A DNA stretch of 64,000 nucleotides from Verrucomicrobiota bacterium (GTDB lineage Bacteria; Verrucomicrobiota; Verrucomicrobiia; Chthoniobacterales; UBA10450), in the NCBI GenBank assembly GCA_003218375.1, contig QHNH01000017.1, positions 36,184 through 100,183 on the forward strand. The letters run 5' to 3'. Below are positions 29,891-38,475 of the stretch, one piece after another (position 1 is the first letter of the stretch; each line of letters begins with the position of its first letter). The translations under genes and the position numbers were made by a program. The notes under the pieces were generated by a model. The model was not told the origin of the DNA, did no database searches, and saw only the letters and a program-made list of their open reading frames with translations.

Positions 29891-30785
29891 TCAATCGTCC
29901 GCCAGCGGTTCAACACTTTGGCAGATTGTTTTTCTCTCCTTCGCGGCCGTTTTGCTTCTACTCGAGGTCGTTCGCGGATATCGGCTTGGTTTGCCGCGTC
30001 AGTTGATGCGCGGCGCAGCTATCATCGCTGCTTACGCGGCCGCCTATTTCGGCGGCCAGCTTCTGCTGCCGCTGCTTCAGCCGATCCTGAAGTGGCCCGA
30101 TTTCATCCTCACGATGATCGGCGGCGCGATCGTCGCTCTGGTGGTCTACGGTCTCATCGCCAGCCTCGGATCGATTCTCTTCAAGCGGACCGCCCAGCAC
30201 GGCTCAGCGCCGGTTCGTCTCGTTTACGGTCTTAGCGGTGCCGTGACCGGAATTGTGTTCGGCTTGTTTTTCATCTGGTTGATCCTGGTCGGCATTCGCA
30301 GCGTCGGTTCGATTGCCGACGCCCAGGTGCAAGCGCGTCCGCGAACCGACGCGGCACCGCCTTCGTCGCGTACTGACAGATCGCACGCCCTTGAGAATCT
30401 AGATGCCGAATCGCTGACCTCTTTCCTGGCGCGACTGAAGAACTCAGTCGAGCTGGGAAGCATCGGTGACCTGCTGAAGAAAACCGATGTTACTCCGCCA
30501 GCCGTATATCAAATCCTGAAAGATGTCGGCACTGTCTCCGCCAATCCCGAGAATGCGCGCCGCTTCCTGTCCTTCCCCGGCGCCGTCGAGCTGAGCGAGC
30601 ACCCGAAGATCGTCGCCCTGCGGAACGATCCCGAGATCGCCGAGCTGATCAGACAAGGCCGGATCCTGGAGTTACTCCAACATCCCCGCGTCCTCGCCGC
30701 CGCGAACGATCCCACGCTCGTCGAGCGGGTGAAGCAGTTCGATATCAAGAAGGCGCTGGAATTCGCGGCGAAAAAGGACAATTGA
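29847..30785 (+). CDS. CvpA-family-like membrane protein with helical C-terminal region
   Basis: A 312-residue protein. After a non-conserved N-terminus (SAIRSPVSEIQ, encoded by a repeat arm) come four hydrophobic segments (residues ~20-145) with the arrangement seen in CvpA/colicin V production proteins: GYRLGLPRQLMRGAAIIAAY, a DFILTMIGGAIVALVVYG segment and GLSGAVTGIVFGLFFIWLI. Residues 180-310 are soluble and helical (DVGTVSANPENARRFLSFPG, PKIVALRNDPEIAELIRQG). CvpA homologues affect envelope stress and purine-linked phenotypes; the exact role is unknown. Start at ATG 29847, 10 bp after aroC. Confidence 0.7.
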   Translation: MSLFLSAIRSPVSEIQSSASGSTLWQIVFLSFAAVLLLLEVVRGYRLGLPRQLMRGAAIIAAYAAAYFGGQLLLPLLQPILKWPDFILTMIGGAIVALVVYGLIASLGSILFKRTAQHGSAPVRLVYGLSGAVTGIVFGLFFIWLILVGIRSVGSIADAQVQARPRTDAAPPSSRTDRSHALENLDAESLTSFLARLKNSVELGSIGDLLKKTDVTPPAVYQILKDVGTVSANPENARRFLSFPGAVELSEHPKIVALRNDPEIAELIRQGRILELLQHPRVLAAANDPTLVERVKQFDIKKALEFAAKKDN

Positions 30786-31192
30786 AGATTTCAGATTTCA
30801 GATTTCAGATTGCGCTGTTATGAACCCCGAAGAACTAAAAGATCGGACGAAACAATTTGCTCTTCGCATTCTGAAACTGGTGGCTGCATTACCGAAGACA
30901 GTGGAAGGCCGCGCGATCGCGAACCAACTGGTTCGATGCGGAACTTCCGTAGCCGCGAATTATCGAGCGACGTGTCGGGCTAGGTCTAAAGCGGAGTTTA
31001 TTGCCAAGATTGGGGTTGTCTTGGAAGAGGCGGACGAGGCGTTGCTTTGGCTGGAACTCATCGGTGAAGCAAACCTACTGCCGGCGAAACGTGTCGACCC
31101 TATTCGTATCGAGGCCAACGAGCTGGTCGCGATCATGGCGGCGTCGCGTAAATCAGCTGCTTCCAATCTGAAATCTGCAATCTGAAATCTGC
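30784..31192. mobile_element. Four-helix-bundle gene flanked by inverted heptamer arrays (candidate mobile unit)
   Basis: Left arm 30784-30812 (GAAGATT then three TCAGATT units) and right arm 31164-31192 (four AATCTG[A/C] units) are reverse complements at 27 of 29 positions. They enclose one gene (30820-31185). The unit starts on the second base of the TGA of the cvpA-like gene (30783-30785) and ends 1 bp before the gatB ATG (31194), as if inserted exactly between two genes. No transposase is present and no target-site duplication is clear. Mobility is an inference; the architecture is directly visible. Confidence 0.7.
30820..31185 (+). CDS. Four-helix-bundle protein (S23 / 23S rRNA intervening-sequence protein family)
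   Basis: A 121-residue, highly helical protein of the S23/IVP family: LKDRTKQFALRILKLVAALP, AIANQLVRCGTSVAANYRAT (the R-x-G-x-S-x-x-x-N-Y signature) and KAEFIAKIGVVLEEADEALL with WLELIGEANLL. Relatives include ORFs carried inside 23S rRNA intervening sequences of Leptospira and Coxiella and the Avd accessory protein of diversity-generating retroelements; they form pentameric, basic-faced bundles and bind nucleic acid. No rRNA or reverse transcriptase is nearby. The last residues (SNLKSAI) and the stop codon are encoded by the right heptamer array, so the gene and repeat have co-evolved as one unit. Confidence 0.93.
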   Translation: MNPEELKDRTKQFALRILKLVAALPKTVEGRAIANQLVRCGTSVAANYRATCRARSKAEFIAKIGVVLEEADEALLWLELIGEANLLPAKRVDPIRIEANELVAIMAASRKSAASNLKSAI

Positions 31193-31193
31193 A

Positions 31194-32639
31194 ATGCTCA
31201 CCACGATCGGCCTCGAGGTTCATGTCCAGCTGCGGACGCGCTCGAAGATGTTCTGTGCTTGCCCCGTGGAATTTGGCGCGGCTCCGAATTCGCACACGTG
31301 TCCGACTTGCCTGGGTTTGCCGGGTGCGTTGCCGGTAGTGAATGCGGAGGCCGTACGTCTAACGATTCTGACCGGGCTGATGCTGGAGTGCGAAATCGCG
31401 TCGGAGTCGCATTTCGACCGGAAAAATTATTTTTATCCGGACATGCCGAAGAATTATCAGATCACACAATACGCGCGGCCATTCTGCATGAGGGGCTGGG
31501 TACCATTGCACGATCTCGCGTATCCGAAGGACGCGCAGAAAAATATCGAGAGCCCGGACAAGAAAGTCGAGCTCGTCCGGATCCATCTTGAGGAAGATGT
31601 GGCGCGCAGTTTCCATCTCGAGAACAGCACCGGAATCGATTTCAACCGCGCGGGCACGCCGCTGCTCGAGATCGTGACCGAGCCTGAAATCAATTCGCCA
31701 GAAGAAGCGTTCGCTTTTCTCACGGCGCTGAGACAAATCCTCCTCTACGGCGAGGTGAGCTACGCCGATATGGAGAAAGGGCAGCTGCGTTGCGACTGCA
31801 ATATTTCTCTGCGGCCGCAGGGGCAATCCGAGCTCGGGGCCAAGATCGAGATCAAGAACATGAATTCGGTCAGCGGGGTCCGACGCGCCCTCGCTTTTGA
31901 AGTGCGACGACAAATCGAAGCGCTCGAGCGCGGCGAAACACTTCAACAGGAAACGCGTGGCTGGGACGACAGCGCAGGCGAAACATTTCTGATGCGGACG
32001 AAAGAATTTGCGCACGATTACCGGTACTTCCCCGATCCCGATCTGCCGCCGATCCGGACGGAAGCGCTGGTGCGGGAGGCCCGTTCTCGATTGCCGGAAC
32101 TGCCCGGCGCGAAACGCGAACGTTTCGTGAAACAATACGGCGTGAGCGCCTACGATGCCGGCGTCCTGGCGAACGATCTCGAGCTGGCTGCATACTTCGA
32201 GGCCGCGGCGACGGGCGCGCGGCGACCGAAAAGCTTGGCGAACTGGACCCTGAACGATTTGCAAAGCGCGCTCGCAGATGCGGGGCGCTCGATTGCTGAT
32301 TGTCCGGTGTCGCCGGCGGCGCTGGATGAGCTAGTGAATCTGGTCGAGGCCGGAACGATCAGCGGCAAACAGGCGAAGGAAGTCTTCATGGAGATGTTCG
32401 CGAGTGGGAAAACGGCGTCGGCCATCGTGCAGGAGAAAGGGATCGAGCAGTTGAGCGATGCGACGGCGATCGAAGCGCTGTGCGACGAAGTCATCGCCGC
32501 GAATCCGAAGCCAGCGGCCGATTTCAGAGCCGGCCATACGGCTTCGCTGAATTTTCTGAAGGGACAAGTCATGAAGCTTTCGAAGGGAACGGCGAATCCG
32601 GCGTTGGTGGGTAAGATCTTGGAGCGGAAACTTAGGTAG
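31194..32639 (+). CDS. gatB: Asp/Glu-tRNA amidotransferase subunit B
   Basis: A 481-residue GatB: TIGLEVHVQLRTRSKMFC at the N-terminus, CPTCLGLPGALPVVN, HFDRKNYFYPDMPKNYQITQ, IHLEEDVARSFH, ADMEKGQLRCDCNISLR, KNMNSVSGVRRALAFE, and the C-terminal YqeY-like tail domain (SGKQAKEVFMEMFASGKTAS). It is the kinase/transamidase partner in GatCAB, converting misacylated Glu-tRNA(Gln) to Gln-tRNA(Gln). gatA and gatC are not in the window. Its ATG follows the heptamer unit by 1 bp, so its leader sequence is repeat DNA. Confidence 0.96.
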   Translation: MLTTIGLEVHVQLRTRSKMFCACPVEFGAAPNSHTCPTCLGLPGALPVVNAEAVRLTILTGLMLECEIASESHFDRKNYFYPDMPKNYQITQYARPFCMRGWVPLHDLAYPKDAQKNIESPDKKVELVRIHLEEDVARSFHLENSTGIDFNRAGTPLLEIVTEPEINSPEEAFAFLTALRQILLYGEVSYADMEKGQLRCDCNISLRPQGQSELGAKIEIKNMNSVSGVRRALAFEVRRQIEALERGETLQQETRGWDDSAGETFLMRTKEFAHDYRYFPDPDLPPIRTEALVREARSRLPELPGAKRERFVKQYGVSAYDAGVLANDLELAAYFEAAATGARRPKSLANWTLNDLQSALADAGRSIADCPVSPAALDELVNLVEAGTISGKQAKEVFMEMFASGKTASAIVQEKGIEQLSDATAIEALCDEVIAANPKPAADFRAGHTASLNFLKGQVMKLSKGTANPALVGKILERKLR

Positions 32640-33890: not shown

Positions 33891-36800
33891 ATGGAAGAGG
33901 AGCCGTCACCCGCCATCGCGCCATTCGTGTTTTCAGACCCAGCCGGCAAACGCTGGCCGCGGCTGCGCCTCGCCCTGCTCATCGGCGGCATCGCGATTTT
34001 TCTGGGCACGGTCCTTTTCGTCCAAACGCTTTTTGTCGCGCCCCAATTGAGACTGCCTTTTTCCCTGCGGCAGTTGAAGGGACAACTCAAGCATCTCCAG
34101 ACCGTGAACCCTGCCGGCCAGGTCGCGACCAACCTGGCGCTCTGGGAAAAGTTTGCCGCCACCAGGCTCGCCGCGAAAAAACCGAAGCCGCCCATCGCCC
34201 CGACCCCTCCGGCGCATCCGCGGAAAAAGCTGCCGAACAACGAAGTCCGGCTCGCCTTTTACGCCAATGGCGATCCCTACAGTTACACGTCGCTCGAGCA
34301 GCACGCCGCCCAGATCACGCACGTCTGTCCGGAATGGATGGCGATGACCAATGGCGCGGGCGATTTACAGATCGATGCCGATAGCCGGTTGCCGAAGCTC
34401 GCCGCGAGCAAAGGGATCGCGCTCATGCCGCTGCTCACGAACCTGGTCGGCGATACCTGGCAACCGGAAGCGGTCGAGAATCTCGCGCACAGTTCGCCGG
34501 AGCGACAGGACCGGTTTATCCAGAAAGTGCTCGCGATTTTGAACGACGCGAAAGCGGCCGGCGTAATCATCGATTGGGAGCAGGTCGATCCCGCTTACAA
34601 GAAGGACATCACTGCGTTCTTGGATCGTTTCACCGACGCGCTCCACTACGACGACAAGCAGCTCTGGCTCTGCGTCCAGCCGGGCCAGGACCTCGATTAC
34701 ATCGATTTCGATGAACTCTCCGACAACGTCGATCGCTTCGTGGCCATGCTGTTCGACGAGACTTCCGACATCGATCCGGCGGGGCCGCTTGGCTCGCGCC
34801 GCTGGTTTGAAGGCTGGCTCAGCGTGCTCATGGACGGCGCGGAGACGAACCAATGGATCATCGCGCTCGGCAGCTACGGCTACGATTGGACCAGCGGCGG
34901 GAAAAAAGCGGAGCTGATCAGTTTCCCGGAAGCGATGAGCCGGGCGAGCTACGCGGAAGTGGACAAGACGACGGTCGAAGCGCCGCACTACAATCCGTAT
35001 TTTTATTATGAGGACGCGGACAAGGACCATTCGGTCTGGTTCCTCGATGTGGTCACGTTCCTGAACCAGGTGCGACGGGTCCGCGAGGCGAAGGCGGGCG
35101 GCTTCGCGATTTACCGGCTCGGGACGGAAGACGTGGCCATCTGGGACGCGCTCGGAGTCGCCAACGATTTCAAGATGGATACGGCGACGCGGGCGCCGCT
35201 CGAAGTGCTAAAGGGAACGGACACGATCGCGGACGTCGGCGACGGCGAAATTGTTTCGGTCGATGAATCGACGGCGGACGGGTATCGGACGCTGGCCGTG
35301 GACAACGACGGTTATCTCACCGCGATCTATTCAAAGTTCCCGCAATTTCCGACCCTCTATCACCAGGGCGCCGGCGGGCCGCACCAGATCGCGCTCACCT
35401 TCGATGACGGGCCCGATCCGAAATGGACACCGAAGATCCTCGATATCCTGAAGGCGGAAAACGTGAAAGCCGCTTTCTTTCTCGTTGGGGCGCGGGCCGA
35501 GGAATATCCCAACCTCGTCCGGCGCATCGTCGCCGAAGGACACGAGATCGGGAACCACACCTACTACCATCCGAATCTCGCGCTCTGCTGGCCGGAGCAT
35601 ATCCGCGTGGAGCTGAACGCGACGCAGTTGTTGCTCGAAACAATCACAGGTCGCTCGACGACGTTGTTCCGCCCGCCCTACGCCGCTGACACGAGCCCGT
35701 CGAAAATTACCGAGCTGGTACCGCTGCAGCTCGCGCAGGATCTCGGCTATCTCGTCGTGCTCGAAAACATCGATCCCCAGGATTGGGCCCGGCCGGGCGC
35801 GGACGTGATCCTGCAGCGGGTGAAGCAGCAGCGGCGCGATGGCAGTATCATTTTGCTTCATGACGCGGGCGGCGATCGCGAGCAAACCGTTGAGGCGCTG
35901 CCGCGCATCCTCGATTATCTCAAGACGCGGGGCGATTCGGTAGTGCCGATCAGCGCGCTGCTCGGGACGACGCGCGATGCCTTAATGCCATCGACCGAAA
36001 CGCAGGGACGGTCGCTGAGCCATTTCGTTTCTGGCGTCGGGTTCCGGATTTTCCACGCGGCGGAAGAATTTCTCTGGGCCTTCATGATCGTGGCGACGGC
36101 GCTGGTTGTTTTGCGAACGCTGATCGTGATCTGGCTGGCGGCGCGTTTCCGGCGGAGCTGGCCCCGCGATTTCGAGGAGCCGATCAGCGTGATCGTCGCG
36201 GCGTTCAACGAAGAGAAAGTAATCGCGGAAACGTTGCGCAGTTTGCTGGCCACGGATTACGAGGGAGAAGTGGAAGTTATTGTGATCGATGACGGTTCGG
36301 CGGACCGGACCGCGGCGGAAGTCGAGGCGAACTCCGATCCGCGCGTGCGCCTATTGCGCCAGCCGAATCGCGGGAAAGCGCGCGCCTTGCAACGCGGACT
36401 CGCCACGATGCGCACCGGCATCGCCGTCTTTCTCGACGCGGACACGCACTGTCAGCGCGACACGCTTCGGCGTTTGGTCGAACCGTTTTCCGATGAAAGC
36501 ATCGGCGGCGTTTCCGGCCATGCGAAGGTGGGCAACCTGCGCACCTTCATCGCGCGCTGTCAGGCGCTCGAATACACCTGCGGTTTCAATCTCGATCGGC
36601 GCGCTTACACGCGCTGGAATTGCATGACGGTCGTGCCCGGCGCGATCAGCGCGATCCGGAAATCGGCGATCGACGATGCCGGCGGCCTGAGCCTCGAGAC
36701 GCTGGCCGAAGACACCGATCTTACGTTGACGCTCCACAAGCGCGGCCAGCGGATGGTTTATGTGCCGGAAGCAATCGCCTGGACGGAAGCGCCGGAAACG

Positions 36801-37244
36801 GTGAAGACGCTCGCGCGCCAAAGATTTCGCTGGGCTTACGGAACGTTGCAATGTCTCTGGAAACATCGCGACATGGTCTTCAACTGGAATTACCGCGCGC
36901 TCGGTTGGTTCAGTCTGCCCAGCGTCTGGTTTTTCCAGATCATCCTGGTCGCGATCACGCCGATGGTGGATTTGTTCTTGCTCGCGTCGCTGCCGTTCGG
37001 CGCCTGGAGCGCGGTGCTGCCGTTCGTGATCGTGTTCCTCAGCATGGATGTGCTCCTCGCGACCCTGGCGTGCATCATCGAACACGAATCGATTCTGGTG
37101 GCCTGGCGAATTCTGCCGATGCGATTGATCTACCGTCCGATGCTGAGCTACGTCATCTGGAAAGCGATCCTGCGCGCGGTGAAGGGAGCGTTGGTCGGAT
37201 GGGGGAAATTGGAACGGACGGCGAGCGTGCCCGCGCGGGCTTGA
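33891..37244 (+). CDS. Trifunctional membrane protein: GH18-like + NodB deacetylase + GT2 synthase
   Basis: A 1117-residue protein with three enzymatic domains. A membrane anchor (residues ~25-45) and Pro/Lys-rich linker precede a GH18-like domain (~118-440; AAGVIIDWEQVDP supplies the acidic residue, GSYGYDWTSGG and GGFAIYRLG follow). A NodB polysaccharide-deacetylase domain (~500-690) has IALTFDDGPDPKWT, GHEIGNHTYYHPN, TLFRPPYAAD, QDWARPGAD and IILLHDAGGDR. After a membrane helix (~725-750) a GT2 processive synthase (~763-1000) shows VIVAAFNEEK, VIDDGSADRT, FLDADTHCQ, LAEDTDLTL and RQRFRWAYG (QxxRW), then membrane helices. This order fits synthesis, deacetylation and trimming of an exported N-acetylglucosamine-type polysaccharide. 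It is 15 bp from glycerate kinase. Confidence 0.93.
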   Translation: MEEEPSPAIAPFVFSDPAGKRWPRLRLALLIGGIAIFLGTVLFVQTLFVAPQLRLPFSLRQLKGQLKHLQTVNPAGQVATNLALWEKFAATRLAAKKPKPPIAPTPPAHPRKKLPNNEVRLAFYANGDPYSYTSLEQHAAQITHVCPEWMAMTNGAGDLQIDADSRLPKLAASKGIALMPLLTNLVGDTWQPEAVENLAHSSPERQDRFIQKVLAILNDAKAAGVIIDWEQVDPAYKKDITAFLDRFTDALHYDDKQLWLCVQPGQDLDYIDFDELSDNVDRFVAMLFDETSDIDPAGPLGSRRWFEGWLSVLMDGAETNQWIIALGSYGYDWTSGGKKAELISFPEAMSRASYAEVDKTTVEAPHYNPYFYYEDADKDHSVWFLDVVTFLNQVRRVREAKAGGFAIYRLGTEDVAIWDALGVANDFKMDTATRAPLEVLKGTDTIADVGDGEIVSVDESTADGYRTLAVDNDGYLTAIYSKFPQFPTLYHQGAGGPHQIALTFDDGPDPKWTPKILDILKAENVKAAFFLVGARAEEYPNLVRRIVAEGHEIGNHTYYHPNLALCWPEHIRVELNATQLLLETITGRSTTLFRPPYAADTSPSKITELVPLQLAQDLGYLVVLENIDPQDWARPGADVILQRVKQQRRDGSIILLHDAGGDREQTVEALPRILDYLKTRGDSVVPISALLGTTRDALMPSTETQGRSLSHFVSGVGFRIFHAAEEFLWAFMIVATALVVLRTLIVIWLAARFRRSWPRDFEEPISVIVAAFNEEKVIAETLRSLLATDYEGEVEVIVIDDGSADRTAAEVEANSDPRVRLLRQPNRGKARALQRGLATMRTGIAVFLDADTHCQRDTLRRLVEPFSDESIGGVSGHAKVGNLRTFIARCQALEYTCGFNLDRRAYTRWNCMTVVPGAISAIRKSAIDDAGGLSLETLAEDTDLTLTLHKRGQRMVYVPEAIAWTEAPETVKTLARQRFRWAYGTLQCLWKHRDMVFNWNYRALGWFSLPSVWFFQIILVAITPMVDLFLLASLPFGAWSAVLPFVIVFLSMDVLLATLACIIEHESILVAWRILPMRLIYRPMLSYVIWKAILRAVKGALVGWGKLERTASVPARA

Positions 37245-37380
37245 AGAATGACGAATGACGAATGTCGAATGACGAAGGAAGTCCGAATGCTCAAATGACG
37301 AATCTGTGATCGCATCGCGCCTCGGAAATTTCGGATTTCGACATTCATTCGTCATTCTTCATTCGTCATTCGTCATTTTG
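37244..37380. repeat. Paired inverted heptamer arrays (ACGAATG type)
   Basis: Left arm 37244-37278: AAGAATG, ACGAATG, ACGAATG, TCGAATG, ACGAAGG. Right arm 37341-37378 read on the minus strand: AAAATG, ACGAATG, ACGAATG, AAGAATG, ACGAATG, AATGTCG. The left arm starts on the last base of the trifunctional gene's stop codon; the right arm lies inside the next gene and encodes its signal peptide. Confidence 0.93.
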
Positions 37381-38475
37381 GCCGTCAGCTGCCTCGCGAT
37401 CGTCGCGTGTCGCAAATCCCAACCGCAAAAATTACCAATCGATCCCAACGCGTCGGTGGAAGTTTTGCTGCCGGCCAACGGCTCCTACACCGGCGCATTC
37501 ATGGACTTCGGAGACGCGGAGGACGATGTGACTCTGGAGACGATTGAGGAATTCGAAAACATGGTGGGCAAACACCAGGCGATCATCGCTTCCTCCAGTT
37601 ACTGGGGAGAACAAAGTTTCCCGACTCGGAATCTAAATGTGATCTGGCGGCACGGCGCGATGCCGCTGGTGTTCTGGTCGCCCTGGGACCGGCCTTACAC
37701 CCAAAACCGCGGGCCGGATAAATTTAGTCTTAACGAAATTGTTGCCGGGAAGTGGGACGCTTACATTGACAAGTGGGGCGATTCCGCGCGCGAATTCGGC
37801 AAGCCGATGATCGTGGCCTTCGGAGTAGAGATGAATGGCGATTGGTTCCCGTGGTCGGGCTGGTTTTACGGCGGAGAAGAATGGGTCGGCGATGCGCCGG
37901 ATGTGTGGGAAGGGCCGGAGCGTTTCAAGAAAGCGTACCGTTACGTAGTCGATCGCGTCCGGGCGCGCGGAGCGGCCAACGTGAAATGGATGTTTCACAC
38001 GAACAATTATTCTTACCCACTCGACACCTGGAACTTCGCGCCCGCCTACTATCCCGGGTCCGATTACGTCGACTGGCTCGGCATGAGCGTTTACGGCCAG
38101 CAGTTCAAAGACGAACCCAATCCCGATATCCCTTCGCTCGTCGATTGGCCTTACAAGGAATTATGCGGATTGGATCCGCAAAAGCCGGTGATGATCGCGG
38201 AGTGGGCCACCGGTGATTTCCCATTTTCAGCCGATGAGAAAGGCATGCTCAAGCCGGCGTGGATCAAGCAAGCCCTCGATCTGTTTCGGACTCGTTATCC
38301 GCGCGTTAAAGCCGCGATCTACTGGCACGAACGCTGGCAAAATCCCGACCAGACCTATAGCAACCTGCGGGTAAATTCGTCGGTCGAATCGCTGAACGCC
38401 TATCGCGCCGGCGTGGCGCATCCCGATTGGCACGGGGAACTAATTCTGCGGCCGATGGAAAACAACAAACGATAA
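37306..38475 (+). CDS. Glycoside hydrolase family 26-like lipoprotein
   Basis: A 389-residue protein. GTG 37306 gives RHSFVILHSSFVILAVSC followed by LAIVAC with a lipobox-like Cys at residue 35; much of this hydrophobic leader is translated heptamer repeat. The mature part resembles GH26 (beta-mannanase clan A): GAFMDFGDAEDDV, MPLVFWSPWDRPY, VAFGVEMNGDWFPWSGW (acid/base Glu), YYPGSDYVDWLGMSVYGQ and PVMIAEWATGDFPF (nucleophile Glu), IYWHERWQNPD. Substrate may be mannan or another beta-linked glycan. Position after the polysaccharide synthase suggests surface glycan turnover, by inference only. Confidence 0.85.
   Translation: MIASRLGNFGFRHSFVILHSSFVILAVSCLAIVACRKSQPQKLPIDPNASVEVLLPANGSYTGAFMDFGDAEDDVTLETIEEFENMVGKHQAIIASSSYWGEQSFPTRNLNVIWRHGAMPLVFWSPWDRPYTQNRGPDKFSLNEIVAGKWDAYIDKWGDSAREFGKPMIVAFGVEMNGDWFPWSGWFYGGEEWVGDAPDVWEGPERFKKAYRYVVDRVRARGAANVKWMFHTNNYSYPLDTWNFAPAYYPGSDYVDWLGMSVYGQQFKDEPNPDIPSLVDWPYKELCGLDPQKPVMIAEWATGDFPFSADEKGMLKPAWIKQALDLFRTRYPRVKAAIYWHERWQNPDQTYSNLRVNSSVESLNAYRAGVAHPDWHGELILRPMENNKR

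Follow-up and report, generated by a model that had tools for sequence, protein, structure and literature searches.

The GH26 locus and its leader

The window, that is, the whole stretch of 64,000 nucleotides that was analysed, lies on contig C47 of the 3.96 Mb draft genome of a soil bacterium (G000; the assembly is a MAG), whose closest named relatives are Spartobacteria/Chthoniobacterales MAGs, several of them carrying the label palsa isolates. The following features were located at the start of a GH26 gene and upstream of it.

33891-37244, plus strand: upstream gene of 1117 aa (GH18, polysaccharide deacetylase and family-2 glycosyltransferase), whose stop codon ends 2 bp 5' of the element
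37242-37276, no strand assigned: left heptamer arm, TGACGAA units (Tandem Repeats Finder)
37247-37377, no strand assigned: palindromic element AATGACGAA...TTCGTCATT (hairpin; alignment to other copies)
37277-37345, no strand assigned: core between the arms, which holds the GTG start and is inverted relative to the G005 and G004 elements (local alignment scores)
37306-37308, plus strand: predicted GTG start, the sole in-frame start codon 5' of the right arm
37306-37410, plus strand: lipoprotein-type leader, 34 residues and Cys35 (residues 1-24 from the element, 25-35 ancestral)
37342-37377, plus strand: right heptamer arm, read as HSFVILHSSFVI (repeat array and translation)
37408-37410, plus strand: lipobox Cys codon (AIVAC), aligned with the ortholog Cys
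37441-38475, plus strand: mature GH26-family glycoside hydrolase (PF02156; 2bv9 match)

The open reading frame from GTG 37306 to 38475 gave the translation VIASRLGNFGFRHSFVILHSSFVILAVSCLAIVACRKS. It matched PF02156 with 43.2 bits against a cut-off of 20.2 (E 4e-11), exceeding the gathering score, and comparison with endoglucanase H of known structure (2bv9, E 5e-22) aligned both catalytic Glu motifs, VEMNGDW and MIAEW. By gathering score and catalytic Glu pair the protein is a member of the GH26 family. Its leader, VIASRLGNFGFRHSFVILHSSFVILAVSCLAIVAC-RKS, is long (34 residues before the Cys), contains the right arm read in frame and has what would be expected of a Sec/SPII lipoprotein signal peptide, namely a positive n-region, an uncharged hydrophobic core and a lipobox Cys. 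No obvious Shine-Dalgarno sequence was found ahead of GTG 37306, and the same was true of several repeat-free orthologs.

An earlier note on this DNA had read the right heptamer arm as part of this leader, and our analysis agreed: the arm, translated in frame, makes up the n-region and the initial half of the hydrophobic core of a lipoprotein-type leader, and the GH26 gene that carries it is intact. The leader quoted there, RHSFVILHSSFVILAVSC, corresponds to codons 12-29 (37339-37392), and the Cys that aligns with the orthologs is Cys35 (37408-37410, AIVAC), not Cys29. The hydrophobic super-period HSSFVIx that was claimed is indeed read in frame with a period of 7, but the pure unit gives HSSFVIR, with an Arg at each seventh residue. 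Leu stands in place of this Arg in G000 through a CGT>CTT change at codon 37357-37359, which extends the uncharged run to 22 residues, and through TTG 37378 at the element boundary.

A dispersed family of heptamer-armed palindromes

Tandem Repeats Finder reported two arrays with a period of 7, TGACGAA in five copies at 37242-37276 and TCATTCG in 4.7 copies at 37345-37377. The arm 14-mer CATTCGTCATTCGT, searched with at most one mismatch, had six matches in the window against 0.10 expected, all of them within the two arms. The repeat had been described as an arm, and the array is real, but it is more than a simple array: together, the core and both arms make up a single palindrome of approximately 131 bp (37247-37377), with an RNA fold of -68.6 kcal/mol (z -7.0), which belongs to a dispersed family. 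Within G000 an exact 18-mer had 46 matches at about 25 places and a 14-mer 63 matches at about 35 places, while the reversed control had none. The genome contains about 30 near-complete copies, and the family consists of dispersed palindromes of about 95-150 bp. Copies within G000, and copies compared with those of G005, aligned over 120-145 bp at about 70-84% identity in either orientation, since the elements are palindromes. Of 83 genomes in the taxonomic family, 52 contain the 18-mer. In a sample of 117 genomes from the order, 15 had a longer two-armed pattern, and the reversed control gave no match. An extended, uninterrupted run of about 17 CATTCGT units was also seen at G005:C13:43763-43881 (L117), where one arm has probably been expanded by slippage.

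Elements were also located inside other genes. The LeuRS gene carries the whole element as an in-frame insert, YWMGG-ANDEARMTNDERMTKPESTGSSSFVIRHSSFQST-PGGVDLY, in three species, G000, G005 and G004 (L001 1501-1596, L126 and L233). The site is clean in G001, G002 and G006 and holds a short unrelated variant in G003, and the uninterrupted query was matched over its full length by G007. The element has inverted repeats, and no clear target-site duplication was found at LeuRS. The IspG gene contains the element in frame in G000 and G005 (L007, L114), so that, judged from the reading frames, the element is tolerated within translated proteins. These IspG loci hold further species-specific inserts built of other heptamer types, for example MKDEGGRMKENGDPATYSSLIPNPSSFS in G005.

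The leader of a BamE-domain lipoprotein (PF04355; L019/L123, minus strand), MSSFRLRHSFVIRHSSFVICLLALIFALAAC in G000 with a similar one in G005, also appears to be made from the element; G006 has a short relic, MSSFVIFLLAISLALASC, and G001-G003 have ordinary repeat-free leaders. Two further cases are less certain than that of the BamE family: a glucose/sorbosone-dehydrogenase-like secreted protein (L101) probably starts in an element, and the leader MTKRECSSFVIRHSSFRAASA of a GspG-like prepilin (L102, minus strand) is probably derived from one. At the prepilin site G005 has a different repeat.

GH26 orthologs with and without the element

The 60-odd GH26 orthologs have their lipobox Cys at a single aligned position, and the majority reach it through an ordinary repeat-free signal peptide of 15-26 residues, such as MKRCVSVVFLFAVAGMLFGC in G017. 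An element is read through into the same Cys in seven species of four genera, namely G000, G004 and G005 of one genus and G018, G012, G036 and G058 of three others; their start codons lie inside the element, and the frame runs via the arm into the shared lipobox. The most direct comparison is offered by the sister pair G058 and G059, whose flanks match closely and of which only G058 has the element, the leader of G059 being MLKVGRWTLGVCLAMMSILALTSC. The leader of G006 contains another heptamer, TTTCGTG.

Leader features (charge, uncharged run and hydropathy) were obtained by simple custom scoring. The uncharged run before the Cys was 12-22 residues in repeat-bearing and 12-20 in repeat-free leaders, the peak hydropathy was 2.0-3.6 and 2.0-3.2, respectively, and the n-region was net positive; on these scores the repeat leaders would lie within or close to the repeat-free range. 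Ordinary signal peptides at the same place in repeat-free orthologs, together with frames that run through the arm into the same Cys in the others, support the suggestion of the earlier note that an export signal may have arisen in part from repeat DNA or been lengthened by it.

In the GH26 tree, species with the repeat are interspersed with sister species that lack it, and within the genus the presence of the element is patchy for both GH26 and LeuRS. A single ancient insertion followed by simple vertical inheritance is thus unsupported, and the scatter calls for recurrent gain, precise loss or exchange. At L031/L032 and in the LeuRS inserts, element DNA has changed much less between species than the adjoining synonymous sites (dS about 0.3 in the LeuRS insert and more than 1 in GH26), a difference suggestive of exchange at a later stage, homogenisation or a constraint imposed by the palindrome. 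The GH26 leader compared between G005 and G004, a short and repeat-biased stretch, gave a dN of 0.27 and a dS of 0.41, which is not low.

The element as a candidate donor of the export signal

Since 7 is coprime to 3, the pure arm unit CATTCGT gives the same stop-free reading, HSSFVIR, in each of the three outward frames, while the opposite strand has a TGA every 21 bp. Consequently, an element tends to stop the reading frames that enter it and to leave open those that run out of it. When the outward frames of 43 elements were examined, 165 of 258 (64%) had a start inside and an open readout, 119 with ATG. An open frame across the arm occurs this often by chance and is weak evidence, and we rejected it as an argument for a genuine leader. 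In a simulation, element ends were fused to the final 10 residues of natural signal peptides, and 52% of the fusions had acceptable leader features; shuffled elements reached 19%, random DNA from the window 18% and reversed elements 2%. By this measure the element would make a good donor of signal peptides.

With a probability of roughly 0.78, we propose that an element of about 130 bp was inserted before the GH26 gene, replaced its start and n-region and donates a putative export signal. The insertion would have taken place between the glycosyltransferase gene and the GH26 gene and would have destroyed the start and n-region that the GH26 signal peptide originally had. The core of the element would then supply a start codon, its Arg and His residues would serve as the n-region, and the Phe-Val-Ile runs of the arm would form the first half of a hydrophobic core, fused in frame to the surviving second half of the old core and to the old lipobox. 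Observed directly are the presence of the element, the in-frame fusion, the homology of the lipobox, the empty sites in relatives and the signature of purifying selection in the enzyme gene. From the sequence one would further predict that translation begins at GTG 37306 and that the product is exported by Sec and lipidated.

The frequency of open outward frames raises the question of an annotation illusion, in which the stop-free arm merely extends the reading frame, the real start is TTG 37378 or GTG 37456, and the enzyme is cytoplasmic or poorly exported. A normal start 0-5 codons past the element is indeed seen in many other genes that adjoin one. However, every repeat-free ortholog of the family keeps a signal peptide and lipobox, and the lipobox Cys is retained in seven of seven repeat-bearing species. 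The only start between arm and lipobox in G000, TTG 37378, would leave 10 residues before the Cys with no positive charge, its equivalent in G004 is TTA, and further in-frame starts fall within the mature protein. A true start downstream of the arm was thus rejected for G004 and is unlikely elsewhere, and we consider this explanation improbable. The earlier note had named a true start after the repeat as the finding that would overturn its reading; in the ortholog comparison the repeat-bearing frames enter the same Cys, and a start after the repeat works poorly.

It is considerably less probable that the element broke the leader and that GH26 is a decaying, unexported pseudogene in the repeat-bearing species. 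Its patchy presence, the unusual length of the leader and the GTG start would fit such decay, but the dN/dS of the enzyme was 0.03-0.11, repeat-bearing pairs included, which indicates purifying selection; the catalytic motifs are intact, and the in-frame relation to the lipobox is maintained across seven species.

The core of the G000 element gave reverse-complement local scores of 77 and 62 with those of G005 and G004, compared with 26 and 28 when aligned without inversion and at most 28 for shuffles; G005 and G004 share one orientation. Through the inverted core the start reads ATG CGA TCA in G004 and G005 and GTG ATC GCA in G000, so that an in-frame start exists in both orientations. This could be taken to mean that the palindrome is an invertible switch, whose flipping alters the start and n-region and hence GH26 translation. 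Among seven ortholog element pairs of G000 and G005, however, only the GH26 pair was inverted, four had kept their orientation and two were ambiguous; no recombinase was identified, and replication template switching between the inverted repeats, or an assembly error, could also give an inversion. We regard a switch as very unlikely, on a par with a decaying gene. Because orientation was kept in four of the other pairs and ambiguous in two, the simplest reading is that at GH26 a short segment between inverted repeats was inverted and became fixed. Fast inversion of element cores in general was rejected, a clear inversion being found in the GH26 copy only.

Slippage expansion of heptamers within an ordinary signal peptide, with no insertion of an element, can be dismissed as barely credible and is largely contradicted already. 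The number of units does differ among species, and the window contains period-7 arrays built of other units. Against slippage, however, the core and its two arms belong to a single palindrome, alignable over 120-145 bp with many unlinked copies, and at LeuRS there are sites in relatives that lack the whole element.

IVP genes between heptamer arms

At the GH26 locus of G058 the arms enclose a four-helix-bundle gene (PF05635, TIGR02436; 23S_rRNA_IVP). Eleven of the 13 IVP-type genes of G000 lie between inverted repeats, many with a period of 7 bp and with a unit that differs per locus, whereas 2 of 300 random window placements gave a match at the same E-value cut-off. One such gene was seen in the window itself at 30783-31196 (ATG 30820), where it fills the gap from the upstream stop to the next start at 31194 and lies between inverted heptamer arms built of a different unit, AGATTTC and GAAATCT. 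On this arrangement, the short palindromes may have arisen from IVP-carrying elements by deletion. A wider proposal, which we put forward tentatively and would sooner bet against than on, is that an undescribed mobile class exists which includes the heptamer-armed palindromes as its short forms, with a long form that carries a 23S_rRNA_IVP gene, locus-variable arms of 7-bp period, an invertible core and an outward strand that, as a donor of signal peptides, would repeatedly rewrite the N-termini of exported proteins.

Comparison with known systems

The before-and-after species pairs provide a sequence-level example of a bacterial export signal that appears to have been rebuilt from mobile-type repeat DNA, and the ease of such rebuilding would be explained by a stop-free arm that encodes the same Arg-containing hydrophobic peptide in each frame. 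Protein-coding palindromic elements are thereby extended to a new family in Verrucomicrobiota, in which the consequences for LeuRS, IspG and lipoproteins are testable. Annotators should be aware that N-terminal leaders of the RHSSFVI type in this group could be genuine or artefacts. A limited literature search on Verrucomicrobia heptamer repeats, repeat-derived signal peptides and IVP elements outside rRNA returned no match, which leaves novelty unproven.

Several described repeats share part of this picture. With 23S rRNA intervening sequences that contain an S23/IVP open reading frame (e.g. in Coxiella, PMC4990558) our elements have in common an IVP gene between inverted repeats, but here it lies between protein genes, outside rRNA, and the arms are often locus-specific heptamers. 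The TAACTGA repeats of Beggiatoaceae and cyanobacteria (PMC4679880) are likewise heptamer arrays found a few bases 5' of start codons; they are, however, direct repeats of one heptamer and proposed translational sites, whereas the arrays described here are inverted arms of a dispersed palindrome. Repeats of the MITE, REPIN and ERIC types (PMC10969869, PMC3116915) are also short, non-autonomous, imperfect palindromes, mostly intergenic; the present family differs from them in its heptamer-built arms and its entry into coding sequence, with no clear target-site duplication at LeuRS.

A parallel in kind is found in the Rickettsia palindromic elements (Ogata et al. 2000, 2002, as reviewed in PMC10969869), which are tolerated as in-frame inserts in unrelated protein genes. 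Like them, the elements described here are dispersed imperfect palindromes of about 100-150 bp that lie in frame inside unrelated proteins (LeuRS, IspG) at sites that are empty in relatives. They differ in their host, which belongs to another phylum (Chthoniobacterales), and in their period-7 arms, and we set them beside the Rickettsia elements by description, claiming no membership in a named family. They differ further in the candidate export signal at GH26 and at the BamE-like gene, where the element is not an internal insert, in the inversion of the core and in the arms around a 23S_rRNA_IVP gene. In kind, then, the family behaves like the Rickettsia elements, with a new predicted outcome, the donation of an export signal.
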